The notes under the pieces are model-generated. The model worked only from the letters and a program-made list of their open reading frames with translations. It had not been told where the DNA came from and did no database searches. This document shows positions 18,801 through 45,100 of a DNA stretch of 64,000 nt, in pieces. Both the position numbers and the translations under genes were made by a program. Source of the stretch: Antedon mediterranea (taxonomy: Eukaryota > Echinodermata > Crinoidea > Comatulida > Antedonidae); NCBI RefSeq assembly GCF_964355755.1, contig NC_092672.1:23308501-23372500 (forward strand). Reading direction: 5' to 3'. Position 1 is the stretch's first letter, and each line of letters starts with the position of its first letter.

Positions 18801-21800
18801 AACAATATTTATTATTCTTATTTTTTCTAGGTCCTTAATTTCCTTGAAGAAAAATTGCAAGTTTTAAGTCAGAATGGTGCACGTGGTGTTGAAGTAAAGA
18901 TGTACATCCGTTGTGCATGTTCAAATAGTGAGCGTACTCATATGCAGGTTGTTCGCAAATTTGACCAAGATGTGTTGCCATGTAGAAGCAGAGCAATGGA
19001 CGTGAAACGTTACCGTAAACTGTTTAGCAAAATAGAAGTAGAACAAGGTATAGGCCTAATAATCCATAATAAATACGGCATAAAACAAAACATGCAAACA
19101 TATTTTTGTTCTTTAACTAATGATACTTGTGACATACAATTTCACAAACTTCAAATTTTCAGTTGATGCATTTTAACCTTTATCTGTAGTTTTTATGTTA
19201 TATGTTATAAAGAGAAAAATAAACCATCAGAAAATGCTTATAATGCGAGTGGCAGCAATGCCAAATCTTCTTTATCAAAAGTTCAAAGAACTGCTGGTAG
19301 CATCATCTGATTGATCATGTAGATGTGGAAGGCAACAAACAACTAACATACACCATTTTACATCTCTATGTTTTAGTAGCCTCTTTATCTACTCGCACTA
19401 GATAATAATAATAATAATAATTTATTGGAAACTTCACTTTCACAACAGTGGCACACTTTGTTGACAAAGGTGCGTCCAAATAATAACATACAAGAATAAA
19501 TAAAATGATTAACTTAAAAATAAATCAAAATGAATGAATGAAATACAAAACATAACTCAAAAACAAACAAAAATAAATAAATACTTTAAATTAAAATAAA
19601 TAAATAAAACAAACTTAAGAGGAATAAAAATAAATAAAAATGTTTAGATACACACAAAATAAATAACAAAATTAATTTCATGATATGAATCAAAATAAAG
19701 AGTATAACAGTGTGTGTAATACTCAACACTAAGGCATAATAAATAAAATAAAAAGACAAAGATTACTAAACAGAAATCAAAATGACACACAAAAGTTGAA
19801 AAGCAATTCAAAACACAACAGCATTGACATTACAAGTTTAAAAGAGCACAACGTTCTTCCATAAAGATTTAGCCAATGATTTACAAAATTACATGTTAGG
19901 AGAAAGTGCATAATGGTTTCTTCTTCATTTCTGTTGCACAATTTACAACAACCATTAGCATTAGGGTCATTTGACCATTTAGATGTTTTTCTTTCAAGGG
20001 GAAGGGTGTTTGATCGCAGCTTAAATTTTAACGATTCTCCTTCAAAGTCAATTTTATCAAGTAGATACTGTTCAAGTTTTGGTTCATTTTTTATATACAT
20101 ATAATATTCAATTGACGTTTTACATTTACCGTCTTCAACCCAATACGAGAGAGCTAGATTTTTCATAATTATTTTTGTATTGGAAGCCCAGTTGGCATCA
20201 AAGTTATCATTACCATTTCGAATATCAGAAAAAATATCATGTGTACCACAATTATCAATGATATTTCGAACACACAATGGAATTTTAAATGATAGATCAT
20301 TAAAGTTCTGTCAATTTAACTAGTGTTTTCAGTAATATCCTAGGCCAACGTTCATCTTCCATCTTTAAAATTCTTTCCATATAATTAATTTTATTTACAT
20401 TTTGAATATATGAGATTTTTGACCACCCAAATTCCCCATAAAGAGTAGCAAAGGGGTATTCCTAAAGACCTTAAGGATAAACCTTGCCATTTGTAATTGT
20501 AGTCTTTCAATTCTTTCACAATCACTTTTGCTACCAACCCAAATAGTACTATCATAATTTATTGATGTATGTTTATTTTGCATAGATGCACCTATTGCTG
20601 CTCATTTGGCTGCAAGCTCATTAGGGACAGGTATAGGTGAGTAACATTAGATCATTAGGGACAGGTATAGGTGAGTAACATTAGATCATTAGGGCATTGT
20701 TATAACCACTTATGTAGTACCAGCTATAATAAAAACTACTGCTAAGAGAGAAACATTAAAGATATATCATTTATTTCATTTGAACAAATACAAACATGAA
20801 AACAGAACAAATGTAAATCAATGAGGCAGGATTACCTAAAGTAACAGTCGAGAAGCCAAAATAAGACATTCAAACATATTTAAAACATAATTAAAAACAC
20901 ATTTTTTGTAAGAAAGTTAAAATTGCTGTATATGAATGACAAGATAGTTTAAAATGTATGAAGTTAAATGTATTACAGCAAAATCCACCACAGGTTAGCT
21001 AATTCTTTAAAATAATCAAAGCCGAACAAATCAGAATGGAATCATGCTAATGTTTCTTCTAACTTTCAGAAACATCAAATTATCAACATTATTTTCTTTG
21101 ATATTATTAATTTGAATACTATAATAACAATTTTCAAATAGTAGGCAAAACTTTTCTACGTAGGAAAGGTGGTCAAAATAATAACTAAAACATCCTTGAA
21201 AACAGATTGTGTGTATACTTCTAAAGACTGATCATTTGAAATATATTAAGTCAAACTAAATAATTTATGAATATGATGAAAACACTTTTATTTATTATTA
21301 ATTTTAATTCAAAAGTTGAGGCCTTAAAATTATACAAAAAAATATGGAAACCATCATCATTAATTACTGGTTTTGCTTTAAATTATTTTCCCTATCAAGC
21401 CCAACTCTGTTAACATAGAGCCTGATTTATTCCTTTTCTCAATGCAACTAAACAAAAGGAAACAGGCCTATGATTAATATGGTGAATTTTAGTCATTAAC
21501 AATAATTCTTTATTACAGAAACAAGTCCAAATTCACTGAAAGACAAGTTAAACAAGTTAAATTATGATCTCAGTGAAGTCTTTATGAAGAATAAGAGAAA
21601 ATTCTTATTTTTGAGATGTTGTCTCTTTGATGAAGTAGATTTACAAGTCCTTGGCAATAAAGATTACAAAGCAAATGATTATTTTAATGAACTCGCTGAT
21701 AAAGGAAAGATCAAACCAACCGACGTCAACCTTCTGCTTGAAGTGGCAACACTATCAGAAATTAAACATGCTAAAGATCTTGTAAAACAGTATATGAATG

Positions 21801-23661
21801 ACAACAATGTACACATTAGTAATCAACAGAAGATGTCCTCATATAGAAAAAAGATTGTGTAAGGCATTGGAACAGTTTAACCCAAGTGAGTTGAATAGAG
21901 TTACAGCTTGTTATCAATTGGAACAACCAACAATTTGGGATGTAACATTTTATTTAGAGAGCAAATCCAAATTGGTAGATGAATCAGAAAGAGAGAAGTT
22001 TGCTGAGCTGCTTGGACCAATCCCAAATAAAATAATGTGTAAGTCAATTTGAGAGATTTCTTACCTTAAATCCACAGATTGTAGGTCACCTAAATATTCT
22101 CCCACAATAACTGGCATCAAACCAAAATTTTAGAAAAGGGTAAAAATATATTGAGAATACATTGAGTTGCACCCTCAAACATAGAATGAATGCTGGACCA
22201 TTTGATGATGACCGTATGATACAAAATGATTTGTTGACACAGGTTAAGAACATGAAATAACAGGAATATTCACATCCTGACTTTTCTTTGTCACTAAGGT
22301 TCTTATACCGTTTACAACATTATAACGCTCTGTCTATACTATGAAACTTTTTGTGACAAAACAATGTGATGTGCAATTTTATGGACATGATGATGTCATA
22401 TCACTTCCATATTTGGGAACATCACTACCATAGTTGGGCACATCACTACCATATTTGGACACATCACACATTTTTGTCAAACTAATTTGATAGTGTAGAC
22501 ATAGCTTACAACTGCCATTTGAGCAGGCAAATACTGTTTTATTACTATTTGTGTTATTTATTCTTAATTATTTTATAGTAATGTTATTTATCATCATGTG
22601 TCCGGAAACTGTAAAAGGGGATTTTGTGCTAAAACAATTTATGTCATTGTGAGAAAGCTTGTTTAACTAAAGAAAGTGTATACCTTGTTTTAAACTTTCA
22701 TTGTGATAATTTTTAGGCAACAAAGAAGATGATAATTGAGGCAACACTGAATACACCATTACGGCAACACTGAAGACACTATTGAAGATGCCTTTGAAGA
22801 ACCACTGAGACACCATTGCGGCAATACTGACGACACTATTGATGATGCCACTGAGGAACCATTGAGGCACCACTGAGACACCATTGAGGCACCACTGAGA
22901 AACTATTGAAGATGCCATTGAGGAACCTTTGAGGCACCACTGAGACACCATTGAAGATGACATTGAGGAACCTTGAGGCACAACTGAGACACCATTGAGC
23001 ACCACTGAGCCACCATTAAGACACCATTGAGGCACCACTAACACACAATTGGGACATCACTGAGCCGCCATTGAAACACCACTGATACACCATTGAGGCA
23101 CCACTGACACACACTTGAGACATCACTGAGTCACCATTGAAACACAACTGAGCCACCATTAAGGCACCACTGATACACCGTGCACCAACCAAGTGAAGGC
23201 AAGTTACGAGTGGATAGAGATATAATAGAGTAATATTAAAATTATTGTCATAATGATAAACAAAATATGATAATGTAGAGGAAGTTGATGATAAAGATGA
23301 CATTGACGTTGAATAAATGTTTACTTTAGGACAGTATATGAATTATGATTTTTTTTTTATTAAATGGGAAGAATATTTCTGCCTCGTTAAATAGAACATG
23401 TACCCGTTCCAGTCCATAAATATTCATTATTTTGTATAATGTCTACTGAATGTAAACTGTAAATGTTAATTCATTCCTTAATTTTACAGCTTGTTCAAGA
23501 TCTCTTATTCATCTGTGGATAGGTGGAGAAGACTGGCAGTGCGATTTGGTATTCAATGGGATGTTATCAGTAATACCACAGGTAAAAACAGACATGATGA
23601 ATATGACATGTTGGAAGAGGTAGACAATGATCAAAGCATTAACACAATAGCGACGTGTTGA
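4993..23661 (+). CDS. Roc-COR protein with DED-like and death-domain-like C-terminus (16-exon gene)
   Basis: Sixteen exons join with matching phase: 4993-5009, 5492-5595, 6301-6414, 6841-6954, 7355-7521, 8236-8325, 8565-8723, 9145-9414, 10152-10337, 16429-16584, 16670-16951, 17144-17245, 18831-19047, 20586-20630, 21519-22036 and 23490-23661. The product is about 903 aa once one extra base is discounted. Order: a low-complexity N-terminus, a Roc-like GTPase domain with WDFGGQ, a COR-like region (YLHDIGEILFY), a Cys-containing module, a DED-like death fold, and a death domain (WRRLAVRFG). ROCO proteins are Ras-like switches tied to a COR dimerisation device; death-fold tails usually recruit apoptotic or immune adaptors. 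No Walker A motif is visible, so GTP binding is uncertain. No leucine-rich repeats, kinase or ankyrin repeats are seen. The gene resembles invertebrate ROCO-death proteins and is not an obvious DAPK1 or MFHAS1 orthologue. Confidence 0.82.
5036..5131 (+). repeat. SINE fragment, 3' part (family A copy 1)
   Basis: It matches the reverse complement of 5745-5820 (TCCCAAAGACTTGTAATAAG, GCATCTTGTGTAT). It lacks the tRNA-like head and sits in intron 1 of the Roc-COR gene. Confidence 0.65.
5492..5595 (+). CDS. Roc-COR gene exon 2
   Basis: Acceptor TTGTCAG and donor GTAAGT. It encodes about 34 residues beginning FNPLHIITDAM, with no recognised domain. It leaves one base over, matching the phase-1 start of the next exon. 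Confidence 0.65.
5740..5935 (-). repeat. tRNA-derived SINE (family A copy 2)
   Basis: On the minus strand it starts near 5935 with a tRNA-like head. TTGTGGCTTGGTGGTTATGA resembles an A box and GGGTTCAAGTCC is a B box. A unique body follows, ending at about 5740. There is no clover-leaf of a functional tRNA. It shares its body with 5036-5131 and its head with 40655-40805. Confidence 0.75.
6301..6414 (+). CDS. Roc-COR gene exon 3 (linker)
   Basis: Phase 1 on both sides, 38 codons, basic and Ser/Thr-rich (for example KSPRHTKGYTPRAG). Exons 3 and 4 have the same length (114 nt) and phase, so they may be an old exon duplication. This looks like a flexible N-terminal linker. Confidence 0.65.
6841..6954 (+). 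CDS. Roc-COR gene exon 4 (linker)
   Basis: Acceptor TTTTTCAG and donor GTAAAT, phase 1 to phase 1. It encodes a polar stretch rich in Ser, Thr, Lys and Glu (for example GASTSKQDAKFAETSTSS). The Roc P-loop would be expected near this point of the protein but is not seen. Confidence 0.65.
7355..7521 (+). CDS. Roc-COR gene exon 5: Roc G3 motif
   Basis: It encodes a basic stretch followed by NKFVMNIWDFGGQPIYH. WDFGGQ is the DxxGQ switch-II (G3) motif of Roc domains. The exon ends in phase 0 before GTAAAT. The preceding 25 residues align with nothing resembling a GxxxxGK[ST] loop. Confidence 0.85.
8236..8325 (+). CDS. Roc-COR gene exon 6: Roc core strand
   Basis: Thirty codons, phase 0 to 0. It encodes the hydrophobic beta strand IFMVSYAVVCVVFNMKEG, which in Roc domains follows switch II. 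Donor GTAAGT. Confidence 0.8.
8565..8723 (+). CDS. Roc-COR gene exon 7: Roc G4 region
   Basis: Fifty-three codons. LDFILFWIRSVF is followed by KIMLIGTHYESL. GTH occupies the place of the THxD-type G4 base-specificity motif of Roc domains, but the Asp is replaced by Glu two residues on. Donor GTACAT. Confidence 0.8.
9145..9414 (+). CDS. Roc-COR gene exon 8: end of Roc, linker to COR
   Basis: Ninety codons, phase 0. It begins with a helix (VKEIENILWKALEGK), then a strand and ENS at the G5 position, a helix rich in Ile/Leu, and a Lys/Glu-rich charged patch (RKKEKERKGEK) before the donor GTTAGA, which is weaker than the other donors. Confidence 0.75.
9797..9823. repeat. (AT)n microsatellite
   Basis: A run of about 13 AT dinucleotides inside intron 8 of the Roc-COR gene. 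Confidence 0.9.
10152..10337 (+). CDS. Roc-COR gene exon 9: COR domain
   Basis: Sixty-two codons, phase 0. LLDYLHDIGEILFYPDD is the classic N-terminal COR signature (LxxLHDxGxILY), followed by a helix around VDKFKTIITV. COR mediates dimerisation in ROCO proteins. A 6.1-kb intron follows. Confidence 0.85.
10576..10724. repeat. 73-bp tandem duplication with inverted ends
   Basis: Two copies start at 10576 and 10649. Each runs from CTATTAAAGAGGACACC to GGGATCCCTTTAATAG, so it has partly inverted ends typical of a small MITE derived from a Tc1/pogo-like transposon. The family is an inference. Confidence 0.6.
10725..13189. other. Intronic sequence, no exon seen
   Basis: This is part of the 6.1-kb intron 9 of the Roc-COR gene. 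There is a TAGGCCTA-rich patch at about 11.93-12.20 kb and generally AT-rich sequence. No coding or RNA gene was recognised. Confidence 0.5.
13190..13845 (-). mobile_element. 5'-truncated LINE fragment (CR1/jockey-like RT C-terminus)
   Basis: The minus-strand frame 13459-13845 encodes the end of an RT domain (NTKFLGIFIDDRL, LSYLNYGV, IQKQAVRIISGA, FRAHTHDLF). This matches the arrangement in the larger LINE at 35.3-38.7 kb ([33 protein letters not shown]). The 3' part continues to about 13190. It is dead by truncation and sits in intron 9. Confidence 0.8.
14264..14536 (+). other. Unexplained 90-codon ORF island of unusual composition
   Basis: Open from ATG 14264 to TAA 14536 on the plus strand, with overlapping minus-strand frames also open over the same bases. 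The DNA is richer in G+C than its surroundings, and the peptide has no recognised domain (it contains TLNKNGSVPLIGVFGNK). No splice sites tie it to the host gene. It may be part of an unknown mobile element; translation is not supported. Confidence 0.3.
15030..15240 (+). repeat. tRNA-derived SINE (family B)
   Basis: The head has GGGGTTCAATCCTGA (B box) preceded by an A-box-like stretch near GGAGCTGTATCATAGAGG. A unique body follows, ending in TAATAAAG. It cannot fold as a complete tRNA. It lies in intron 9. Confidence 0.55.
15800..16319 (-). mobile_element. LINE fragment with C-terminal zinc-binding motif
   Basis: The minus frame 16125-16319 encodes SLKFSSNSLPLEGRK and CLMCNCNEKETVYYF, a degenerate version of the RT-associated CxxC...H...C module seen at 19777-20277 and 58127-58384. 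It is truncated and decayed. The 3' limit is approximate. Confidence 0.55.
16429..16584 (+). CDS. Roc-COR gene exon 10: COR domain
   Basis: Fifty-two codons after TTTTTTAG. LWRNLNGGKLDERLLQHIW and the helix FFVSLMQTFGLMCE match the middle of COR domains, where a [LF]xxLMxxFxL helix is typical. Donor GTATTT. Confidence 0.82.
16670..16951 (+). CDS. Roc-COR gene exon 11: COR C-terminal part
   Basis: Ninety-four codons. It includes YVLSRLKPQ and the strand-rich FHDFDGYLPDDLFQRVAT, which matches the COR-B motif F.FDGYLP..LF.R. Donor GTAAAC. This is one of the best conserved parts of the protein. Confidence 0.87.
17144..17245 (+). CDS. Roc-COR gene exon 12
   Basis: Thirty-four codons, phase 0. 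It starts with a strand (TTIVRTKI) that probably ends the COR fold and continues into a Ser/Asp/Pro-rich loop. Confidence 0.75.
17580..17795 (+). repeat. tRNA-derived SINE with (ATT)n tail (family C)
   Basis: GAGTTCAAATCC resembles a B box near 17620. The 3' end reads AGGTGCTTTATAAATCCAGG and then an ATT repeat, a common invertebrate SINE/LINE terminus. It lies in an intron of the Roc-COR gene. Confidence 0.6.
18831..19047 (+). CDS. Roc-COR gene exon 13: helix plus Cys-containing module
   Basis: Acceptor TTTTCTAG, donor GTATAG, leaving one base. It encodes a helix (LNFLEEKLQVL) followed by KMYIRCACSN and a later LPCRSR. The CxC and later Cys could bind metal, but no known zinc motif is complete. 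Confidence 0.78.
19403..20583 (-). mobile_element. 5'-truncated LINE with (TTA)n tail and zf-RVT-like module
   Basis: The minus-strand frames 20395-20583 (IERLQLQMARFILKVFRNTP) and 19777-20277 (LKFKLRSNTLPLE, CCKLCNRNEEETIMHFLLTC) encode the C-terminus of a reverse-transcriptase protein with a CxxC-x7-H-x4-C zinc motif. The tail at 19403-19420 is a TTA run on the element strand. It is similar to 57350-58600, including the 3' terminal sequence. It inserted in intron 13 just upstream of candidate micro-exon 14. Confidence 0.8.
20586..20630 (+). CDS. Roc-COR gene candidate micro-exon 14
   Basis: Forty-five bases between ATTTTGCATAG and GTATAG. It keeps phase 1 on both sides and encodes DAPIAAHLAASSLGT. 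It abuts the truncated end of a LINE fragment (about 19403-20583). Inclusion or skipping would not alter the frame, so it may be alternative or chance. Confidence 0.4.
20622..20690. repeat. 34-bp tandem duplication at a splice donor
   Basis: ATTAGGGACAGGTATAGGTG followed by AGTAACATTAGATC occurs twice, and a third copy is begun. It duplicates the 3' edge of candidate micro-exon 14 together with its GTATAG donor. Confidence 0.75.
20700..21510. other. Intronic sequence, nothing recognised
   Basis: AT-rich intron between candidate exon 14 and exon 15 of the Roc-COR gene. No coding, RNA or repeat family was recognised. Confidence 0.5.
21519..22036 (+). CDS. Roc-COR gene exon 15: DED-like death-fold region, one frame break
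   Basis: Phase-1 start after TATTACAG. The first part (to about 21800) encodes a helical stretch with FLFLRCC, NDYFNELADKGKI and LLLEVATL, resembling a death effector domain. At the A6 run near 21848 the frame shifts by one extra base. The continuing frame encodes another helical region (LCKALEQFNPSELNR, WDVTFYLESKS) that may be a second DED. Two donors exist: GTAAGT at 22039 is stronger, but GTGTAA at 22037 keeps the death-domain frame of the next exon. Confidence 0.65.
22730..23190. repeat. Degenerate short-period repeat (CACCATTGAGGCACCACTGA type)
   Basis: About 460 bp built from variants of ACCATTGAGG, CACCACTGAG and ACACC with a roughly 12-24 bp period. It creates long but meaningless minus-strand frames. 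It lies in the intron between exons 15 and 16. Confidence 0.85.
23490..23661 (+). CDS. Roc-COR gene last exon 16: death domain
   Basis: After ATTTTACAG it encodes SVDRWRRLAVRFGIQWDVI, the W..LA..[LF]G signature of helix 2-3 of death domains, then YDMLEEV. The frame ends at TGA 23659-23661. One base out of frame, from about 23628, the DNA continues with a degenerate copy of the repeat unit encoding the last death-domain helix. The native C-terminus may therefore be frame-disrupted or reached by another splice. Confidence 0.6.
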
Positions 23662-25025
23662 TTTAGCTGATAGCTGGCAGCATGCAGCAGAATATCAACT
23701 ACCTACAATGGTCAAGGCATTAACACAACAGGGATGTGTTCATTTAGCTGATAGCTGGCAGCATAAAGCAGAACATTAACTACCTACAATGGTCAAGGCA
23801 TTAACACAACAGGGACGTGTTGATATAGCTGATAGCTGGCAACATGCAGCAGCACATCAACTATCTACAATGGTCAAGGCATTAACACAACAGGGATGTG
23901 TTGATATAGCTGATAGCTGGCAATATGCAGCAGCACATCAACTACCTACAATGGTCAAGGCATTAACACAACAGGGACGTGTTGATATAGCTGATAGCTG
24001 GCAACATGCAGCAGAACATCAACTACATACAATGGTCAAGGCATTAACACAACAGGGACGTGTTGATATAGCTGATAGCTGGCAAGATGCAGCAGCACAT
24101 CAACTACCTACAATGGTCAAGGCATTAACACAACAAGGACGTGTTGATATAGCTGATAGCTGGCAAGATGCAGCAGCACATCAACTACCTACAATGGTCA
24201 AGGCATTAACACAACAGGGATGTGTTGAGATAGCTGATAGCTGACAAGATGCAGCAGCACATCAACTACCTACAATGGTCAAGGCATTAACACAACAGGG
24301 ATGTGTTGATATAGCTGATAGCTGGCAAGATGCAGCAGCACATCAACTACCTACAATGGTCAAGGCATTTAAACACAACAGGGACGTGTTGATATAGCTG
24401 ATAGCTGGCAACATGCAGCAGAACATCAACTACATACAATGGTCAAGGCATTAACACAACAGGGACGTGTTGGTATAGCTGATAGCTGGCAAGATGCAGC
24501 AGCACATCAACTACCTACAATGGTCAAGGCATTAACACAACAGGGACGTGTTGATATAGCTGATGATAGCTGGCAAGATGCAACAGCACATCAACTTCCT
24601 ACAATGGTCAAGGCATTAACACACAGGGATGTGTTGAGATAGCTGATAGCTGGCAAAATGCAGCAGTACATCAACTACCTACAATGGTCAAGGCATTTAA
24701 ACACAACAGGGACGTGTTGATATTGCTGATAGCTGGCAACAAGCAGCAGAACATCAACTACATACAATGGTCAAGGCATTAACACAACAGGGACGTGTTG
24801 ATATAGCTGATAGCTGGCAAGATGCAGCAGCTCATCAACTACCTACAATGGTCAAGGCATTAACACAACAGGGACGTGTTGATATAGCTGATAGCTGTCA
24901 AGATACAGCAGCACATCAACTACCTACAATGGTCAAGGCATTAAAACACAACAGGGACGTGTTGATATAGCTGATAGCTGGCAACATGCAGCAGCACATA
25001 CAATGGTCAAGGCATTTAAACACAA
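23625..25025 (+). repeat. 81-bp coding-derived minisatellite (about 18 copies)
   Basis: The unit is 27 codons, for example MVKALTQQGRVDIADSW then about ten residues (AAAHQLPT type). MVKAL..QGR.DIAD has the pattern of the last helix of a death domain, and the array starts inside the last exon of the death-domain gene. Runs such as 23789-24244 stay open for more than five units; others are broken by small indels or stops. The simplest reading is expansion of the exon encoding helix 6. Whether any copy is spliced into the mRNA is unknown. Confidence 0.9.
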
Positions 25026-25029
25026 CAGG

Positions 25030-28000
25030 CTTTAAAATAACAGGGACATGTTGATTTTATAGCTGATAAATCATTGTTTATTTTGATTTCTTGACACATG
25101 AAACTGACTGCCAATGCTGTATAGTGTGCATAACCATCAATATTATGATTATCAATATTATTATTATGATTAAAAGGGGCGCTTGATATATAATATAATA
25201 CAGTAACAATGGAGATTATAAAACCACACTTCTAAAATAATTTTTAATCAAAAGATAATTTTAACTATTAACTGGTGCGTGTGAGTTGTGTACTCTCTCT
25301 ATACCAAAAACAAGATCAGCAATGCATCTTGGGGTTTATAGTGGGCCGCCAAAATTTAAAAAATTATTAGAATCGCATTTTAAACTGTTTAAGGATGACA
25401 AAAGGTATCTCAATAGGACCGTATAGAATTTATTTTTACATTAAATGTAGTTTGTGACCTTAGATTTGATCTAAAAAACGTAGGGAATGGGACTTTATAA
25501 TGTAATTGACTATTGTAGGACTTGCTGTAACTGCAGTTTTTTTTTTGTATATAAGATGAGTCTTAGTAATTTGTGTTTTAGTGGCTATGGCTAGTTTTAG
25601 TGGCTATGGCTAGTTTTAGTGGCGTACATGGTAAACCCACTGTGTATTGATTAGCAAAAACATTAACATTCAGAATTAAATTTAAATGTTTCATTGGTAT
25701 AGCTTTATTCAATATTTTTTATTATTGACCTGACTAAACTTTTAAACTTATCTTGTAAAGATAAATTAAAATGTTGGTGTTCTATGTATTAATCACTGCC
25801 GATGATTTAGAAAGGTTTAATAAGCTCTCTAAACAAACTTGCTAACAGTACATTTACTAAAGCCAAATTAGTAGAGTTAGAGTTACTGCAAATACATATT
25901 TCATATTCTATTTTAATAAATGATATACAATCTTTTTTGTATTGTATTTTTGTTGTCTTTTAAATCTCAACGTGAGTCACAAGTAAACTCATTATATAAT
26001 GTTAAGGTAAATTGGTTGGTTTCAACATAGGCAATTGACTATGGTACCAAAATAATAAATGATGTTTGTTATTATTATGGTATCTCTGAATTTAGTAAAT
26101 GACTTGGCTATTGACTTGCCTAATGCAAATGAGATCATTTGTAGAAATTAGACTTACAGAATTTGATTAATGGCCAATATCACCTTTTTATGATTGACAG
26201 ACTTACTAAACAGGACGAAAGGTATGGAGATGGGATCATTCACTGTATAACAGCAATTATATAAATCTCTACCATATTTTCGACCCCTGGTGTGTAATTT
26301 TTCAATATCAAATTGACTAATGGTTGCCAAGGTATCAAATTGACTAATGGTTGCCAAGGTACGGGACATATTTTTAGTATAGTATCATTATGTCTATAAT
26401 TATATTTTGTATTAGAAAACTTTTGTCTAATTTTTATTTTGTTTACTTGCATGTTTGTGGAAATACAATTTTTTTTAAAGAATAAAAAACCTGACATAGT
26501 TCATATTTTGACACACCACCTGATTATGCAAATTATGTATTACATTCTCTTTTGGTTGGCATAGCTTAATAGTGTTTATCCTTAAAATTCAGGAAAGTGG
26601 CATAGCCTATCATGTGCGGCCCATCAATAAACACCAGTGTGACAAATGTTTTGGAGGAGATATGTAAAATACGCGAATAATTTAGTAGCATTAATATATA
26701 GATTGCTTTATACATTGATACCAAAAATTATGAGCATGGAAAACTGCACTTACAGATATTTGTGTCCCTACCCCAAAATTGTCCAAAACTGTGGAGATGA
26801 TTGGAATAATTAGAAATGCGTTAAAATCCCACCTTTCATATTCCGTTATGGTAATTACTTTATTCCTATATACCATTTACTATTATTTACTAATTTGATT
26901 TTAGTTACTTTTTGTTTTTGTTCAGGCACTTTCAACACAAGCTTTTGCTTTTTAGAAATGGTGCCTCCTTCATGATATTGTTTTATTCATTTTAAAGATG
27001 AGAAAAAAAATTGTATTGTTTTAACTATCTTTCTTCATGAATTTTGTATTATATTATTTATTTTGTATATTATGAAGGAATTAATTGTTACTATGAAAAA
27101 AAATATGTAATGTTAACATTGATTTTTGTGTTCACTGGATATAGATGACAAAATATGTACATAGTGTAGACCTCTCATATCCCATGTACTGTATTTTGTT
27201 GCTTGTAACCCGTTTTTCCCTTCACTTCATCAATGCTCAAACTTGTGGCCATGTCAAGAACTTATAATCACAAGATGATTCCTGATTCCTGATTCTTGTT
27301 AATCTTCCTCTGGCCAACAGAATAGACCACTTTCATTAGACTAGTGTGCAAGGCTATCAAACAACTTGATAGCATTGGTCTGTGTCCCTTCTTTAAAGTT
27401 GTCTTTTCTATAAATATATTGGGTTGGATGGAACAACTCAGTCACAATGTACTTCATCGAAGTGAAAATCTAAATTTGTGAACTATGATCTAATCGGATG
27501 CTATAAAGGATATTACTTTTATAATTTACAGTCCCTTTCTTTTTTATACAAAAAAAATAGAATAAAAGAATACTAAAATCAAACATTGAAAAGTCATTTT
27601 GTAGTTTTAATCAGGTTATTTAAAAAATAATGAATTAGCTTATAAAAATGTTATTAGGTTAAATAATTTTTCGTTTCCATCAATTTTTTTGTCAAACTAG
27701 TGTAACATTATAAAATAAAAAAAAATATGTGGTGATCATTTAAGCATTTGACCTTTAACATTGTATCTACAGAAGAAAGCACAGATAAAATGTTATTTTA
27801 AAGCTTTAAGGCCACATTTATATTTGTACCTAATACATTCTTATTCAAAATACTCAAGTTTAAGATATAAAATAATTGTATATAGTGTATTAATTGACCT
27901 TTGACCTAGACTCCAAAGGCAAAATTAAATTAGTTATTCTGAATTTTAAGAATAATGTTTGTATGTGTTTAAAACATTCTTTACAAAAACTTAGTGGTTA

Positions 28001-29604: not shown

Positions 29605-30246
29605 TTATAACCTAACTGGACCATGATACAGCAAACCAAGTAACACAATACCAAAAGCTATATCAATGGCAGGAGTTGTTGTAACTTGCACAAACTTGTT
29701 ATTGATGGTAGTAGTTCCTTGATTTACAGGCTCCTCTTCAACACGTCTACCATTCTGGTGCTCACTAACTATTGGTTTATGTGTAGCACATTGTTCATCT
29801 GAGCTCTTCTTTTGAGATATTTCATCCCCATCTTTCTTTTGTTCAATGTATACTATGCCTATTGTATTTTCCTCACTTCTACCACTATTACAGTTCAGGT
29901 TACCATTTTCATGAAATTGTATTCTAGAATTGTTATTTACATTTTCTGGTTCTTCAATTTCATTGATGCTTTTATCGGTAAACTTATCTCTCTTGTCTTG
30001 ATCTTCAACTTCTTTACTGGTAAACTTATCTCTCTTGTCTTGATCTTCAACTTCTTTACTGGTAAACTTATCTCTCTTGTCTTGATCTTCAACTTCTTTG
30101 GTGCCATTGCTTGAACTAATCACCAACAGGTTACGGTCATGAGGTTCATTATCCAATGATACTGCTGACAGTATACCTTCTGTTAATATGCTATTGTTTT
30201 GTTGCGATTGTTTATCATTGCATTCTTGCACATCAGAATCAGCAAA
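29605..30246 (-). CDS. MYO19: MYO19 last exon 21: tail
   Basis: It encodes 213 residues after TTTTACCAG. The tail is polar and acidic and contains three near-identical copies of a 14-residue unit [14 protein letters not shown] (about 30000-30105). It ends with the hydrophobic [17 protein letters not shown] just before TAA. In vertebrates the tail is the mitochondrial outer-membrane attachment domain, so a membrane role for the hydrophobic end is plausible. The sequence is otherwise poorly conserved and much of it is low complexity. Confidence 0.8.
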   Translation of the reverse strand, partial: FADSDVQECNDKQSQQNNSILTEGILSAVSLDNEPHDRNLLVISSSNGTKEVEDQDKRDKFTSKEVEDQDKRDKFTSKEVEDQDKRDKFTDKSINEIEEPENVNNNSRIQFHENGNLNCNSGRSEENTIGIVYIEQKKDGDEISQKKSSDEQCATHKPIVSEHQNGRRVEEEPVNQGTTTINNKFVQVTTTPAIDIAFGIVLLGLLYHGPVRL

Positions 30247-33095
30247 CTGGTAAAAATAAATATTAAATTGTATCAAGAAAAATATTAGATTAAAAATCAT
30301 AAACTGAATGTTTATGATGTGAATACGGAGAATATTTCATGAAAATTAACTGATTGACCATTTAATGAGGCGGAACCAAGCACAGGTAATCTCTCAGTAA
30401 ATGAAATATACTCTATTCAACATTATTAGTTTCATAACACAGTACATATGATGATGTGTTAATTTAACATTAAAGTAAGTACATGTAAATGAGGATGTGT
30501 TAGTGATGAAGGAACATACTTCACATTGTAAAGTTTGTTGGTGCAGCGAAGATTGAAAATTGCGAGTTTTAAGTAAAAGCCTACCTCATCTGAATTCAAT
30601 TCATTTAATTGTTCATCTAACTTGCGTTGGTGTAAACGAATTGAATATCCAATCATAGCATACTGTATGACACGTGCTGCCTCATGTCGTCTCTTTACAT
30701 CTTTTCTCACCTTCCAGCCTCTAAAACCTACAACATATCAATTCTAGTTAGTGACAATTAGTGGCTTGGTTTGGTAACAGCATGATGCCTGCAAGATATT
30801 TGTCAAAACACTATTACAATCAATACCTGCTTGAATGATGACCACAGCTGCCTCTTGTTTACTTTTGGTTGCCAGGATCTTTCTCCACCACATCTGTATT
30901 ACACCAGCACTTAAATTGAATTCCTTCAATCTTGCAACTTCAAGTTTATCCAACTAAATGAAAAATAACGGAATATAATAAATATACAATGATGCAGATT
31001 CTTACTTACTTTTTTACAAGCTAAAAGTATTATAATTTGGTGCTACAACTTTTTCATAATGTTATAAGATAGCAATTTTACTGATTTTCAATGACTTACA
31101 CACATTTAACTGGGTAATAATTTTTAATAAAATGGTATTTTTTAAATTGTGTCAAATTAATTGTTCTTTTCTTTTTATATTTATATACTTTTTTAAAAAG
31201 AAAAATGCCTCAATTTTACATAATTATTTAGTTAATTTTGGTGAATTTCCTATCTTATTATTAAGTTATACGACAAAAATATTCCTGTAGCACTACTTTT
31301 AAAAATAAAGGTTTATTTCACAACACTCATTCAGCTCTACTCCACAGGTTTATATTATACAGATATTGCCTGCTTAGAGGTGAAATTCAACAATCAACAT
31401 TCCTGAGGGAATGATATTTTTCTCGAAGAACTATATATTACATCTGTTATATTAAAATATGTAGCAGTGTAAGTAGACTTGGCTGGGTCGGCAAGCCTAG
31501 TTCACCTTACCTTGGCGAAAAATGACCGTATAAAGTAAAAATAATTGCTAATGATTCGTTTGCCATAAAATATTCACTTAAATTAATTAAAATTTAATTT
31601 ATTCTACTGCAAATATAAAATAATTAAATTATTATTAAACTACTTTTAAGTACCTGTTCCTCTCTTAGGAATATCTTTGTTTTTCCAAACAAAAAGCTTT
31701 TCATTTTATTTTCTTTGTCTGCTTCAGCTAAAACCAGATTCGTAATAACAGCACATTTACTTTTTGTATCCAAATCTTTTACATCTTCTGAGTTTGACCT
31801 TATTAATAATTCATACCTCTTAAGAAAATCACTGTACAACATTCTATAAGAAAATTGTCATTATCATTCAGAATCAAGTATAACAAACAACACACTGGCA
31901 AGTATGTTAGTAGGTGTTCAACATGTACAGTATGCACAGGGATATATAGTATATATTATAAACAACACACTGGCAAGTATGTTAGTAGGTGTTCAACATG
32001 TACAGTATGCACAGGGATATATATAGTATATATTATAAACAACACACTGGCAAGTATGTTAGTAGGTGTTTAACATGTACAGTATGCACAGGGATATATA
32101 TAGTATATATTATAAACAACACACTGGCAAGTATGTTAGTAGGTGTTTAACATGTACAGTATGCACAGGGATATATATAGTATATATTATAAACAACACA
32201 CTGGCAAGTATGTTAGTAGGTGTTCAACATGTACAGTATGCACAGGGATATATATAGTATATATTATAAACATCACACTGGCAAGTATGTTAGTAGGTGT
32301 TCAACATGTACAGTATACACAGGGATATATATAGTATATATTATAAACAACACACTGGCAAGTATGTTAGTAGGTGTTTAACATGTACAGTATGCACAGG
32401 GATATATATAGTATATATTATAAACATCACACTGGCAAGTATGTTAGTAGGTGTTCAACATGTACAGTATACACAGGGATATATATAGTATATATTATAA
32501 ACAACACACTGGCAAGTATGTTAGTAGGTGTTTAACATGTACAGTATGCACAGGGATATATATAGTATATATTATAAACAACACACTGGCAAGTATGTTA
32601 GTAGGTGTTTAACATGTACAGTATGCACAGGGATATATATAGTATATATTATAAACATCACAGGCACAGAATAAATTCTACATTGCCCGGTGATATACTG
32701 AAATTCAATTAATTAATTTGAAACGATGAAGATGAGGAAATCTGTGAGAATGAGAAAAAGTGGCCTCCACCAAGATTCAAACCCGGAACCTTCTGCTTGA
32801 TGTCCTAACCATTAGACAACTGGGGCTTTCATGGTATTGTTCAAACTCGATTGGATCGTCGTGGTAAGGCGGTATAGCACTAGTCCCTCAGTTGTACGCA
32901 CACACATCAGAGATCAAATTGATACGCCCTCATCTTTCAGTATATATATACATATATATATAAATCCAAAGGCAAATTACTGAACAAAATGACAATGCTG
33001 TGGGTATCAGTGGCTGGATCTCAATGGAGATACACAAATAAAAAGCGAAAAGCTAAATCAAAACGATAAAGTAAACAGCCTTCATCAGTGCAATA

Positions 33096-33162
<67 letters not shown>

Positions 33163-36100
33163 TGTAAGTCCTAGAGCAAGCTGTTTAATTGGGATTGTAA
33201 TAGTCAAAAATACAGTAAAATACAAATTACAACAAATAAGAAGGTTGTAACATGTTTAGTGCAACCTATAAAACAATACAACACAACCATTTTAGTTTTT
33301 GCTTAATTATTCAATATCGAAAACAAACAGGTGTAAGCTGACCTGGTAGGGAAGCCTGTTGCACTGATCTCAATTGTTTCAAGTTAACTTAACTAAACAA
33401 GGATATCAACCAGTCATAGATGGGTACATTGTTAGTGCAAAAAGACACAAAACAACAGCTGTAAGCTGACCTGGTAGGGAAGCCTGTTGCACTAATCTGA
33501 ATTGTTTCAAGAACACCGCAAGCACGTAGTTGATTTATAACATGAACGTTATCAAAGCTGTCTGGTTGACACTCAAGACTTGGTTTGATACAGCGGATGT
33601 AGTGAGGTGTTGTTTCATGTAAAGTAGCCATAAGACTGTCCAATGAATTCTAAGATATAAGATACAATTGTTAGATTGTTACCCCGAAGATTACATGTAA
33701 AAACTATGGTATCAACCAAAATAAGTATAAGTAAATACAAAATGGAGGAAATATGTCTGATAATCAAAAAATAAAATATCTTGCATATATTATTAGTTAC
33801 ATTTTCAACAGAAGTAAAAAAAAAAATTGGGAAGAAATAATTTGAGTGATCCTGCAGATGTTTATTTGATTTATTTCAGCGTCATAAAAAACAATTTACA
33901 GATAAATTACAATTAATATAATATACAGGAAACAAAATATGAAACATCAACAATATACAAAAACAGGGATGCTGAGGATAACCCATAAAAGTCCTTGTTT
34001 CCCTGTTTTCTCCTTTTTTCAAGAAAAAGCAAAAACAACAACAAAGCAAAAAAACCTATCTAAATTCTAAAGCAAGAGCTCAGTCTTGAAGCTATTTTTC
34101 CATACTAAATTCATCAAGAGTCTAAATTAAGTTTTGAATGAGTTTCAACTTTCAGGATTCTGTACCTTAAATTTTGATACCACTGTAGAAGTAGTCTTTT
34201 TGCCTTTTGTTTTACTTGGACTCTGAAAAAAATTCATAAAATTAACATATTTTAGGTTAAACAGAACTATTGACATAATTGACAAGATGCAAAGACATTA
34301 TAAATATCACACATTTATTCGGCATTGTTCTTTGTTTAAAAGTTTCATGATGTAACATTGATGAAGACAGAACTTAAAAAGCAATGGTATAGTGTTAGTA
34401 CGGTGTTACTACAGTGTTAGTATGGTGTTAGTATGGTGTTACTACAGTGTTAGTATGGTGTTACTACAGTGTTAGTATGGTGTTACTACATTGTTAGTAT
34501 GGTGTTACTACATTGTTAGTATGGTGTTACTACATTGTTAGTATGGTGTTACTACATTGTTAGTATGGTGTTACTACATTGTTAGTATGGTGTTACTACA
34601 TTGTTAGTATGGTGTTACTACATTGTTAGTATGGTGTTACTACATTGTTAGTATGGTGTTACTACATTGTTAGTATGGTGTTACTACAGTGTTAGTATGG
34701 TGTTACTACATTGTTAGTATGGTGTTACTACATTGTTAGTATGGTGTTACTACAGTGTTAGTATGGTGTTACTACATTGTTAGTATGGTGTTACTACATT
34801 GTTAGTATGGTGTTACTACATTGTTAGTATGGTGTTACTACAGTGTTAGTATGGTGTTACTACATTGTTAGTATGGTGTTACTACATTGTTAGTATGGTG
34901 TTACTACATTGTTAGTATGGTGTTACTACATTGTTAGTATGGTGTTACTACAGTGTTAGTTTGATGTTACTATGGTGTTACTACATTGTTAGTATGGTGT
35001 TAGTATAGTGTTACTATGGAGTTTAAAAACAAATGATAAGATCAATCACCTGTAAACTGGTAACATTAGCATCAACTAATTGTTGCACAAACTTCTTGCT
35101 GCTAATTTTAAGCAAATCTACAAGTTCTGCTGGAATACCATCCTAAAAACATCAAATGATACACAATAGATTAATTAGTAAATGAACATTCACCTGTGTA
35201 CACTGCACATCAAATCTAATGAGCAAATATAATGTAATAGCAATAAGGTTTCCATTCAAAGTAAATATTATAGGGATACTCAGAAAAAAAGCCATTGTAA
35301 TAGGGCAGGAGTTTCGTTTCGTTTCGTTTCGTTTATTTATTTTTTCCACTCACTTATATATATATATATATCATTTACATTTACATAACATATATTAAAT
35401 GTGGGTGGATGGAAGTCACAGTAAGTTCACTGAACTTTAAGTCGTGACTCCCGTATGCCTAAGTATACTAACATTGCTACAGAGTAGACTAAAATATGAA
35501 TATATAATAGTGAAAGTACATAAAATAAAGAAAATAAAAAAATTTTAAATTATAGAAGTTAAGATAAACCAGGCAATTATATAATATATGAAAAAAAGGG
35601 ATAATGATAACAATTAGAGTACAATATGAAATATAATTAAATATGGTATAATAACAAGTATAACGATACAATGTAGCTGAGATTATTGTATACCAGGGTG
35701 AAGGATTTAATGCCATGTATCACCACCAAATAAATAAGGATAAAAGATCGGCGAAAAATTATGTAGCATATTCTGACACCATTTTGTGTTTGAAATTAGA
35801 TTTAAAACTAGAAAAGGAAGATTTCTGTTTAAGTTCATTTGAGAGTGAAGTCCAAAGTTTGGGACCAAAATAATACATAGAAAATCGTCGAGCCTTAACA
35901 TTTAAATTATCAAGGATATAATTGTTAACAGAGGATCGGGTTTTATAGGAATGGCGTTCGTCAATTCTTGTAAATAAAGCATTAAAATGTGAAGGCAGTA
36001 AATTGTTAGATAAACGGTACATAAATGAGGCAACTTGTAATTTATTTAAATCATAAATGTTTAAAACATTAAATCTTTTAAAAAGTAATTTTGTATGGGC

Positions 36101-42100: not shown

Positions 42101-45100
42101 AAATTCGGTATAAGAAAGTCGAGGGACACCACTTTAGTATGGATGAATGACACTCTCAGTTCCATGCCTCTTTAGTAGGGTGTCACCACTTTAGAAGTAT
42201 GTCGAGGGTCACCACTTTAGTAATTGTCGGCGCAACGGTAAAATAAAACAACTACTAAATGTATACAGTAAACTATGCAATTTATTCCAAGTGAATCAAG
42301 TGAGGATTCTTAATAAATAGATAAAATATACAATATACAATATTTGATAAGACAATGCAATAAACGGTGTAGCTAAGATGCTGGTTGAGAAAAGAGTGTT
42401 AATAATGTGGTCAGTGCATGATAATATTGGGCTTGGCCCATCTCATCTGACCAATTAGGATTAAGAGAATTAATGTGGTTTTCTGTTAGAGTCATTAACA
42501 TTCTTAAAATCCATTAGCTAGAAAAGTGAAGGTAACAGGAAGGTAACCTGTCAATGTGAGGTTAAATAAAGAGATATATAGAGGATGTATAAATAATCAA
42601 ATTAAAAGTAAATGTTGAAATGTTTAAAGGCTATGTGGTAGGTCTGCTACACTACCATAATATTAAGGTATTCCTTATGTCCGTTTTTAGTTATTTCTCA
42701 TATATTATATTATGGTAGAAATAAAAACAAATAAAAAAATACTTAAAAGATATATATACTGTTGATAGAATATTTTGAATCATAAGTAAACGCCAATTTA
42801 TTATAAACATAATCTATTAAAACTTAAAGGTTGCAACTACTTTAAGCTGAACTATAAATACTGTATGCAATCTTACAGGTCGCAACTACTTTAAGCTAAA
42901 CTATAAATACTGTATGCAATCTTAAAGGTTGCAACTACTTTAAGCTAAACTATAAATACTGTAAGCAATCTTAAAGGTTGCAACTACTTTAAGCTAAACT
43001 ATAAATACTGTATGCAATCTTAAAGGTCGCAACTACTTTAAGCTAAACTATAAATACTGTATGCAATCTTAAAGGTCGCAACTACTTTAAGCTAAACTAT
43101 AAATACTGTATGCAATCCTAAAGGTTGCAACTACTTTAAGCTAAACTATAAATACTGTATGCAATCTTAAAGGTCGCAACTACTTTAAGCTAAACTATAA
43201 ATACTGTATGCAATCTTAAAGGTTGCAACTACTTTAAGCTAAACTATAAATACTGTATGCAATCTTAAAGGTTGCAACTACTTTAAGCTAAACTATAAAT
43301 ACTGTATGCAATCTTAAAGGTTGCAACTACTTTAAGCCAAACTATAAATACTGTATGCAATCTTAAAGGTCGCAACTACTTTAAGCTAAACTACAAATAC
43401 TGTATGCAATCTTAAAGGTTGCAACTACTTTAAGCTGAACTATAAATACTGTATGCAATCTTTTTATTGGTATAATACAGAAAATAATTAAACAGCATAA
43501 CCTTTATATCATTTACCTTGTTTTTCAGAATCAATTTCACATGGTCCAGTGACATCATCACTAATAAACTCTATATTTCCAAGATAAAGTATACCACTTA
43601 GAACCTACAAATAAACACATTTTCAAATTCAATTCAATAATTCAAAAAATACAATTATAACATTACTATTAGATTTATGTATAAAAAACATCAAAGTCTA
43701 TTATCACTTATTTATATACTACCATTTGATTTACATTACCATAAATGTGTAAAAGTTGTTTTGAATCAATATACTATCATAATTGTAAAAACTAGGTAAA
43801 AGTTCACTGATGTTTACTGTCCACATGTGCTGGATTAGTTCAACCAAGGCATCTAAACACATTGCTTTGGTTCAGTTAGTTCACTGATGTTTACTGTCCA
43901 CATGTGCTGGATTAGTTCAACCAAGGCATCTAAACACATTGTTTTGGTTCAGTTACTAATAATATCACCATCACTAAGTTTAACCATGTTTTACCAGTTA
44001 ATTCACTCTTCCCTGGTAAAATAATGTTTGTTAAGTAACCAGTTCTAATTAAGTAAAAGTTTCTTAATTTAAATAATTCTTGTTGCTTTGACCTGCTAAG
44101 TCCAACATTATATTATTTGCTTACTAACTAATTAAGTAAAAGTTTCTTACTTTAAATAATTCTTGTTGCTGTGACCTGCTAAGTCCAACATTAGACATTG
44201 CTTACTAACTAATTAAGTAAAAGTTTCTTACTTTAAATAATTCTTGTTGCTTTGACTTGCTAAGTCCAACATTAGACATTGCTTACTAACTAATTAAGTA
44301 AAAGTTTCTTACTTTAAATAATTCTTGTTGCTGTGACTTGCTAAGTCCAACATTAGACATTGCCTACTAACTAATTAAGTAAAAGTTTCTTACTTTAAAT
44401 AATTCTTGTTGCTGTGACCTGCTAAGTCCAACATTACACATTGCTTGCTTTGTAACTATAAAATCTTGTTTATCCTTTTGATTACATGCATCTTCTGAAC
44501 GGTTTAGTGTCACATAGTTTAAGTTGTCTGAACTCAATACATTTGGTAGTAACCAGTTCCTCATTTCCCTTTCATTTGCGCCAAACAGCATCTATGATAA
44601 TTTGAAAGAAGAAATGTTAATGATATTATTAAAAAGACTAATAATGAGAATAATATAAACTAATAATATATTTCATGCTTTGATAACATTAGTAGAGTGA
44701 GTGCTTTCTTGCCCAATATTACAAAATATTACAAAGTGACAATTTTGTTTCAAGATGTTTAATATCAGTACCAGAAAGATCCTTTTCACATCTGCCTACA
44801 TTGATCTCCAGACTTATTACATGTTTTCATATTTACTCACGAACCTTGTGAAATCACGGGAGAAGTATTGTCATTGTATAGTTGATGGTGCTATCATTAG
44901 TACAATCTCAAGTTTGTGAGAACAAAAAAGTCACGCTTCGATACTTTCAAACAGGTGTATGGTCAGTTAAATACCAGGACAAAGCACAAATGCGTAGAAG
45001 AAACAAAAAAACAGGCCCCTGTGAATATCAGTAGATTTTTAAAAACATGATTACAACCAAAGGGTACATGTTTGCTATTAGCCTACTCACTTTAGAAACA

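Follow-up and report, generated by a model that had tools for sequence, protein, structure and literature searches.

The birth of a minisatellite is difficult to trace, since in most cases no unamplified ancestor survives. In work by Taylor and Breden in 2000 and by Haber and Louis in 1998, minisatellites were reportedly born at non-contiguous short direct repeats. The array described here resembles that model in that, in its unamplified ancestor, the unit lies between short direct repeats (ATAGC, 81 bp apart), but differs from its cases in having a protein-domain exon as parent and in that the unamplified state persists in paralogs of the same genome. A second comparison is with human genes in segmental duplications, which, according to De Grassi and Ciccarelli (2009, PMC2812944), carry variable internal tandem repeats, half of them in coding sequence and most of these frame-keeping, with RNA support; the average case has a 30-bp unit and 4 repeats. 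As in these human cases, minisatellite-class exon repeats occur here in recent paralogs and are of unequal length in near-identical copies, the paralog groups are large, and the duplicates lie mostly on the same chromosome. Unlike those cases, the host exon here is frame-broken and known from DNA alone, and the array departs from their average with a unit of 81 bp in up to 18 copies. A further known clustered gene system also shows segmental duplication, tandem repeats and deletion of genes, but the repeats that its abstract names are short tandem repeats of GA and GAT, located around genes and duplications, whereas the minisatellite here lies inside a dead exon. None of the top literature matches listed, from a search with subscription journals mostly outside it, describes a minisatellite that originated in a death-domain (DD) exon. 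Arrays of this kind are known; the record that this one keeps of its birth is unusually easy to read. It is a young minisatellite that arose from an exon, sits in decaying DD exons and was spread by segmental duplication. Judged from sequence, it very probably originated in a DD exon within a single branch of an expanded gene family and goes untranslated.

The array and its host exon

The window (the whole 64,000-nucleotide stretch analysed) holds these features:
21519..22038, + strand: upstream exon with two helical modules, DED-like by eye
22039..22044, + strand: putative splice donor GTAAGT, phase 1, a consensus match only
22735..23190, + strand: degenerate 11/44-bp intron repeat, from TRF and copy comparison
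23490..23626, + strand: relic DD exon, with the acceptor TTTTACAG before 23490
23627..23707, + strand: first unit, MIKALTQ*RRVDLADSWQHAAEYQLPT, at the position of the native copy of helices 5 and 6
23708..25002, + strand: 81-bp minisatellite units 2-17
25003..25068, + strand: terminal partial unit, frameshifted, with the ancestral-type GTTGATTT retained

TRF describes the tandem array as period 81, 16.9 copies and 93% matches at 23624-24999, with a score of 2321, the top value among the window's 51 rows; head-to-tail units of this length lie within the minisatellite range of roughly 10-100 bp. Eighteen unit anchors, from 23627 to 25003, mark 17 units and one partial, the first unit following directly on the DD relic at 23490-23626, in agreement with the first-pass annotation, which had counted about 18 units beginning inside the DD exon. 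Its reading of the encoded pattern, MVKAL.QQGR.DIADSW, was correct, and several consecutive units do stay open, the longest run in the window being 154 aa or about 5.7 units (23780-24241). The unit length of exactly 27 codons holds as a rule: 12 of the 17 units before the terminal partial are 81 bp long, and the five exceptions (83, 84, 80, 83 and 74 bp) include four that shift the frame. The GGCATTTAAACAC variant of the terminal unit, an insertion, is also found in units 10 and 14, which fits block exchange. Mean unit differences at lags 4 and 5 are 5.23 and 5.52, against 5.96-6.53 at the remaining lags from 1 to 9, so that a higher-order repeat of 4-5 units is weak in the window and a regular one is not claimed.

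The exon that carries the array is itself broken. QDLLFIC lies in one frame of the window, RWRRLAVRFGIQWDVISN..DMLEEVDN in the next and the array in the third, and the splice-entry frame is closed by TAG at 23621-23623. Five of the seven array copies have the exon split between three frames, L005 and L006 between two, and all seven share the break that separates QDLLFIC from helices 1-4. The acceptor is lost in L006 and present in the other six copies; in all six the splice-entry frame stops ahead of the array, and in five of the six it is the array frame, with one TAG between them. A TAG reported in the native copy is indeed there, as codon 8 of the first unit (23648-23650); the same copy had been called out of frame, which is true relative to DD helices 1-4, but it is in frame with the splice-entry frame. 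The short array of L005 is in frame with helices 1-4, as is the first unit of L006 up to a TGA, so that not every copy has its frame broken where the array begins. No array copy holds a complete six-helix DD (PF00531) in one frame; the in-frame L005 reading reaches 14.5 bits against Pfam's Death cut-off of 22.6. Mean p-distance across six of the seven copies is 0.029 in the DD relic, 0.028 and 0.029 in the introns and 0.016 in the upstream exon. The DD relic thus diverges at the intron rate. The 11/44-bp intron repeat has a mean p-distance between copies of 0.071, above that of the remaining intron parts.

The window's upstream exon has a six-A run at 21847-21852 where the other ten aligned copies have five A, and the resulting frameshift runs into a stop at 21860-21862. 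No Pfam family matched this exon and its best PDB match (E 0.51) is not significant, which leaves the DED name unconfirmed; its model is helical, with low confidence (pLDDT 55.0). Its 12 synonymous variants, against 10.9 expected, show no purifying pattern, and it therefore provides no within-gene contrast for the array. Without splicing at the putative donor, the frame closes at TGA 22050-22052.

Origin of the unit in the family's own death domain

The consensus unit aligns to an intact DD paralog, L011 (group C5), over exactly 86 contiguous bp, from ATAGC to the ATAGC 81 bp further, where the local match ends. In L011 the 81 bp for helices 5 and 6 are flanked by this 5-bp direct repeat, and the consensus array unit is the L011 segment closed on itself at ATAGC. 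Bounds were compared in three of the six C5 copies: those of L013 equal those of L011, and the left bound of L012 is ATAAC. Intact paralogs match Pfam Death (L011, 2.5e-10, 40.8 bits; L007, 5.8e-11, 42.8 bits), and both hold a complete six-helix DD in a single frame. The array ORF matches positions 52-84 of the 86 in the Death profile with E 0.0015, below Pfam's cut-off, although as a repetitive query it matched many unrelated Pfam families, 16 of which ranked above Death. By conventional helix naming and this profile position, the unit covers DD helices 5 and 6. Birth from the DD of the same family, which the first-pass annotation had proposed, therefore stands, but with helix 5 plus helix 6 as the parent and not the last helix alone. 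The resemblance is not due to chance: unit and family death domain are homologous.

A genome search for the unit, candidate-limited and in one assembly, gave 38 matches at E<=10: 26 at the seven array loci, 10 within the family's intact DDs, one at another DD locus (E 0.41) and one at chance level (E 1.6, with five stops). The reversed-pattern control of the genome search gave 0 matches. With 37 of the 38 matches of this candidate-limited search in array or DD loci and one at chance level, the distribution is not that of a dispersed satellite, nor, in this genome, does the unit resemble only unrelated satellites, a result that the annotation had said would tell against its reading.

Paralogous copies and a proposed order of events

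Besides DD loci, the search placed the unit in seven C3 paralogs, one of them the window, with some 2 to 18 units each. Anchors number 18 in the window, 10, 3, 10 and 13 in L001-L004 (the L004 count omits one stray anchor 1.7 kb away), 2 in L005 and 1 in L006. Degenerate units beyond the counted anchors are also present in L005 and L006. Copy number is thus unequal between paralogous loci, as expected of a minisatellite: the window and L001 share 98% identity across 231 bp of DD exon and first unit but differ in anchors, 18 against 10. The seven array loci form one clade (support 100/98) and sit at different places within the C3 cluster of near-identical copies. Unit types are common to different loci, and units differ by 5.05-6.36 per 81 bp within loci and by 4.98-5.77 between them (four loci). 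The values are alike, and locus-specific homogenisation is not seen.

Four further paralogs (L014-L017) are without exon and array and have one common junction at AAAACA, a motif present at both ends in the window; the junction lies outside the array, and in these copies the upstream exon is still open. L007-L010, the intact C3 group, fall with the array clade; they are without the left ATAGC, however, and have GGTAGACA in common with the DD/array junction of the array copies, so that the order of events is not clean.

One genome thus shows apparent successive states, namely an intact exon that holds both ATAGC repeats, arrays of about 2-3 units, arrays of 10-18 units, and loss of exon and array together. 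Because they stand side by side, they can serve as a natural series in which a repeat is born, grows and is lost. The DD frames may have broken under relaxed constraint, since duplicated genes can presumably do without the DD. The first tandem copy could have arisen by slipped mispairing or microhomology-mediated repair at ATAGC, and further growth would have come from unequal exchange or slippage between units. The array probably diversified before the segmental copies parted and altered its length afterwards, and L014-L017 would have lost exon and array by deletion.

Coding potential of the units and rival explanations

Forty-three units, a set that omits the 74-bp window unit 17, hold 36 distinct variants: 7 synonymous (6.2 expected), 25 nonsynonymous and 4 stop (2.7 expected). 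A stop codon occurs in 10 of the 43. The dN/dS comparison among units that had been suggested was run as a pooled pN/pS, which is 1.22; dN/dS for intact DDs, C3 versus C5 groups, is 0.33-0.45. The variants look neutral, and because units are not independent, such selection tests are weak against fine effects. A coding repeat under selection was rejected, given the lack of a synonymous excess, the stops and the pN/pS value. Of the two fates first proposed for the array, dead amplification fits this neutral pattern, the stops in the units, the entry-frame stop in six of six copies and the intron-like DD divergence; a source of variable-length C-termini, if spliced in, is not supported, given that entry-frame stop, the neutral variants and the stops. 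We infer that the array is not translated. Repeats that look untranslated and selection-free make this a clear example of minisatellite birth from a broken exon.

That the array is nevertheless spliced in and translated, giving death-fold adaptors with variable-length C-termini of helix 5-6 hairpins, is improbable. The 27-codon unit is mostly open, with runs of 207 aa in L003 (about 7.6 units), 152 aa in L004 and 134 aa in L001 beside that of the window, but open units are inherited from a coding parent and need no selection. The shared entry and array frame, with its single TAG in five of six copies, and the in-frame starts of L005 and the first L006 unit would also suit translation; against it stand the stop ahead of the array in every acceptor-bearing copy, the missing acceptor of L006, the stops and neutral variants of the units, the frame-shifting lengths of 4 of the 17 window units and the upstream frameshift of the window gene itself. 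More doubtful still is that the arrays serve as a reservoir of hairpin chains, expressed as C-terminal tails by some alleles or paralogs; with one TAG between frames and the L003 units open, a stop-free allele or alternative splicing could expose the hairpins.

An array that is non-coding but functional, for instance as a 3' UTR that is transcribed or as a substrate for recombination that drives cluster turnover, is as improbable as a translated one. The array loci do lie in a cluster of near-identical copies, and minisatellites in segmental duplications are known to vary (PMC2812944), but four close paralogs without the array keep an open upstream exon, their AAAACA junction lies outside the array, and units show no locus-specific homogenisation in the four loci compared. 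Long-read consensus errors in copy number or frame are an extremely unlikely source of the pattern: the upstream frameshift of the window comes from a single additional A in an A-run, and one assembly was used, but the array recurs in seven loci at different places, all with the same break between QDLLFIC and helices 1-4. Annotators should be warned that the open units of the array could pass for a protein domain in repeated copies. Modelled by single-sequence AlphaFold2, the 154-aa run has a mean pLDDT of 46.4 and a pTM of 0.22.

The unit and its source in the death domain

The array occupies a relic death-domain (DD) exon that follows an exon encoding two helical modules:

21519-22038 (+): upstream exon, two helical modules
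23624-24999: 81-bp tandem array, 16.9 copies, 93% matches (TRF)
23627: start of the first unit, at the place of the native copy

Using ATGGTCAAGGCATT as anchor, 18 unit starts were placed between 23627 and 25003. Unit length is 81 bp in 12 of the 17 units preceding the last, partial one; the others measure 83, 84, 80, 83 and 74 bp. The consensus unit is MVKALTQQGRVDIADSWQHAAAHQLPT. Stops occur at codon 8 of the first unit (TAG) and at codon 24 of the second (TAA), and the longest open run in the window array is 154 aa.

The window maps to C3:23308501-23372500. The genome (354 Mb, 18 contigs) contains many death domains, with at least 149 PF00531 matches. A search with the DD exon plus first unit returned six further array-bearing copies, all on contig C3 (L001-L006), and DD homology without an array in four copies on C3 and six on C5; all six array copies, all four other C3 copies (L007-L010, DD intact) and three of the six C5 copies (L011-L013) were fetched. 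L011, whose intact-DD sequence includes ...VQWRNSWQHAEAHQLPTMIKALKQQGRVDLADSLCTRHEYKD..., and L007 both match positions 7-82 of the 86-position Pfam Death profile. Alignment of the unit consensus to L011 spans exactly 86 bp and has ATAGC at both ends, so closing the stretch between these two ATAGC repeats on itself gives the 81-bp unit; this match bears out the proposal of the first-pass annotation that the array arose in the gene's own death domain. The bounds are the same in L013, the left bound is ATAAC in L012, and the alignment covers 70 bp in L007 and L010, whose left part has diverged. Models in which minisatellites arise at short direct repeats are a precedent. The unit corresponds to Death profile positions 52-84, which we take to be helices 5 and 6, so the source is two helices and not, as originally suggested, the last helix only.

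The unit appears confined to array loci and DD loci. Its first 27 bases, with up to 3 mismatches, occur 47 times in the genome, 46 times in array loci and once in a C5 DD (reversed pattern, 0 occurrences). A three-unit protein query (E≤10) gave 38 matches: 26 in array loci, 10 in same-family DDs, one in a C7 DD locus (E 0.41) at a place that also matches Death, and one on C6 (E 1.6) with five stops. No unrelated satellite source was seen in the 27-base genome search or among the matches listed for the protein query.

Duplication, length change and probable loss

The seven array copies form one clade in the DD-exon tree with support 100/98 (14 rows, 11 different; six of eight inner branches open).

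Anchors per array
Window: 18
L001: 10
L002: 3
L003: 10
L004: 13
L005: 2
L006: 1

L004 has one stray anchor 1.7 kb away, beyond its 13, and degenerate units are visible in L005 and L006 besides the anchored ones. Over 231 bp of exon and first unit the window shares 98% identity with L001, yet the two have 18 and 10 anchors, so array length changed after they parted. Unit types probably predate the segmental copies, because units differ about as much within loci (5.05-6.36 differences per 81 bp; 81-bp units, four loci) as between them (4.98-5.77). From the sequence comparisons, we read the array as an exon-born minisatellite that was amplified in a decaying DD exon and spread with segmental duplications; variable internal tandem repeats in human segmental duplications are a precedent (PMC2812944).

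The upstream-exon subfamily comprises, among the matches listed, 11 copies: ten matches of at least 94% identity and the window copy, which is matched in separate parts. A DD relic or array is present in 7 of the 11, the upstream exon of L003 being located in L018. The other four (L014-L017) keep an open upstream exon and gave no DD match (tblastn, E≤0.01; 5.8-7.6 kb each); they jump from ~22636 to 25654 in window positions, with the junction at AAAACA, a motif found at both ends in the window. Because the wider family has the DD exon, we infer deletion in these copies rather than original absence of exon and array. GGTAGACA is common to the intact C3 group and the DD/array junction of array copies, and the left ATAGC is absent from the intact C3 group, so duplication and frame loss may have come in either order, and gene conversion may have occurred between copies.

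Between the upstream exon of L018 and the DD relic of L003 lie ~5.5 kb (C3:20744590-20750061) that match nothing in the part of the window used for comparison and start 12 bp ahead of the DD exon. This putative insert is flanked by matches with a 6-bp overlap (window 23478-23483), like a target-site duplication.

Reading frames and constraint

The first-pass annotation left a choice between dead amplification and spliced-in, variable-length C-termini. The upstream exon ends in a phase 1 GTAAGT donor, and the DD exon has the acceptor TTTTACAG (TTTCACAG in L004), lost in L006. Several features count against a dead array: the splice-entry and array frames coincide, a run of 207 aa is open in L003, and helices 1-4 share their frame with the L005 array and, as far as a TGA, with the first L006 unit. 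However, the entry frame hits a stop ahead of the array in all six acceptor-bearing copies, a TAG one codon ahead in five and an earlier TAA in L003. In the window and L001-L004 the DD exon is split over three frames, and in L005 and L006, too, its peptide QDLLFIC is out of frame with helices 1-4. Together with the neutral-like variants described below, the entry-frame stops speak against spliced-in tails, and dead amplification is the better alternative.

Variants were counted in 43 of 50 listed units (six not of 81 bp and the 74-bp window unit 17 were dropped; the list excludes terminal and degenerate units). The 36 variants were 7 synonymous, 25 nonsynonymous and 4 stop, where resampling of the same base changes predicts 6.2 synonymous variants (sd 1.9) and 2.7 stops (sd 1.2); a stop is present in 10 of the 43 units, and pooled pN/pS was 1.22 (903 pairs, stop codons skipped). 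Five of the seven intact DDs fetched served as control, with dN/dS of 0.33-0.45 when the C3 group is compared with the C5 group and of 0.39-0.73 within C5.

In six copies (without L003), mean p-distance was 0.029 for the DD relic, on a par with two intron parts (0.028 and 0.029) and higher than the 0.016 of the upstream exon; it was 0.071 for the intron repeat and 0.136 for the 5' flank, where the alignment ends are ragged. Across 11 copies the upstream exon has 12 synonymous and 29 nonsynonymous variants but no stop variant (expected, 10.9 synonymous and 1.8 stop), and its frame is open in 10, the exception being the window copy with one extra A. Constraint on this branch as a whole is thus either weak or too recent to be visible.

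At the upstream exon's acceptor, L005 (276-300) has CCTG in place of the ACAG of the other aligned copies, so the exon may be unspliced there. The intron repeat (22735-23190, directly ahead of the DD relic) is a second, degenerate repeat of 11/44 bp, AGACACCATTG-like; the array copies compared with the window carry it too, and it diverges more than the remaining intron.

Neighbouring repeats and frames

Other minisatellites in the window
31885-32662: 77 bp x 10.1, 0% indels
34387-35016: 22 bp x 28.6, 0% indels
42823-43462: 49 bp x 13.1, 0% indels
44045-44446: 81 bp x 4.9, 0% indels

All four lack indels, so uniform unit length is no sign of selection; the 81-bp repeat is, by eye, unrelated in sequence to the DD array. 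A 42-bp repeat (29977-30099; 2.9 copies, 100% matches) runs in frame (14 codons) within a 243-aa minus-strand open frame that had no Pfam match at E≤0.1. The two-module upstream exon is part of a very large family on C3, C4, C5, C9 and other contigs, with at least 150 matches (322 candidates, of which 150 were scored and all 150 matched); a Pfam scan of one member gave no match. A 177-aa minus-strand frame at 19780-20310 weakly matches zf-RVT (E 1.1e-4, below the curated cut-off) and is possibly a fragment of a LINE-like element.
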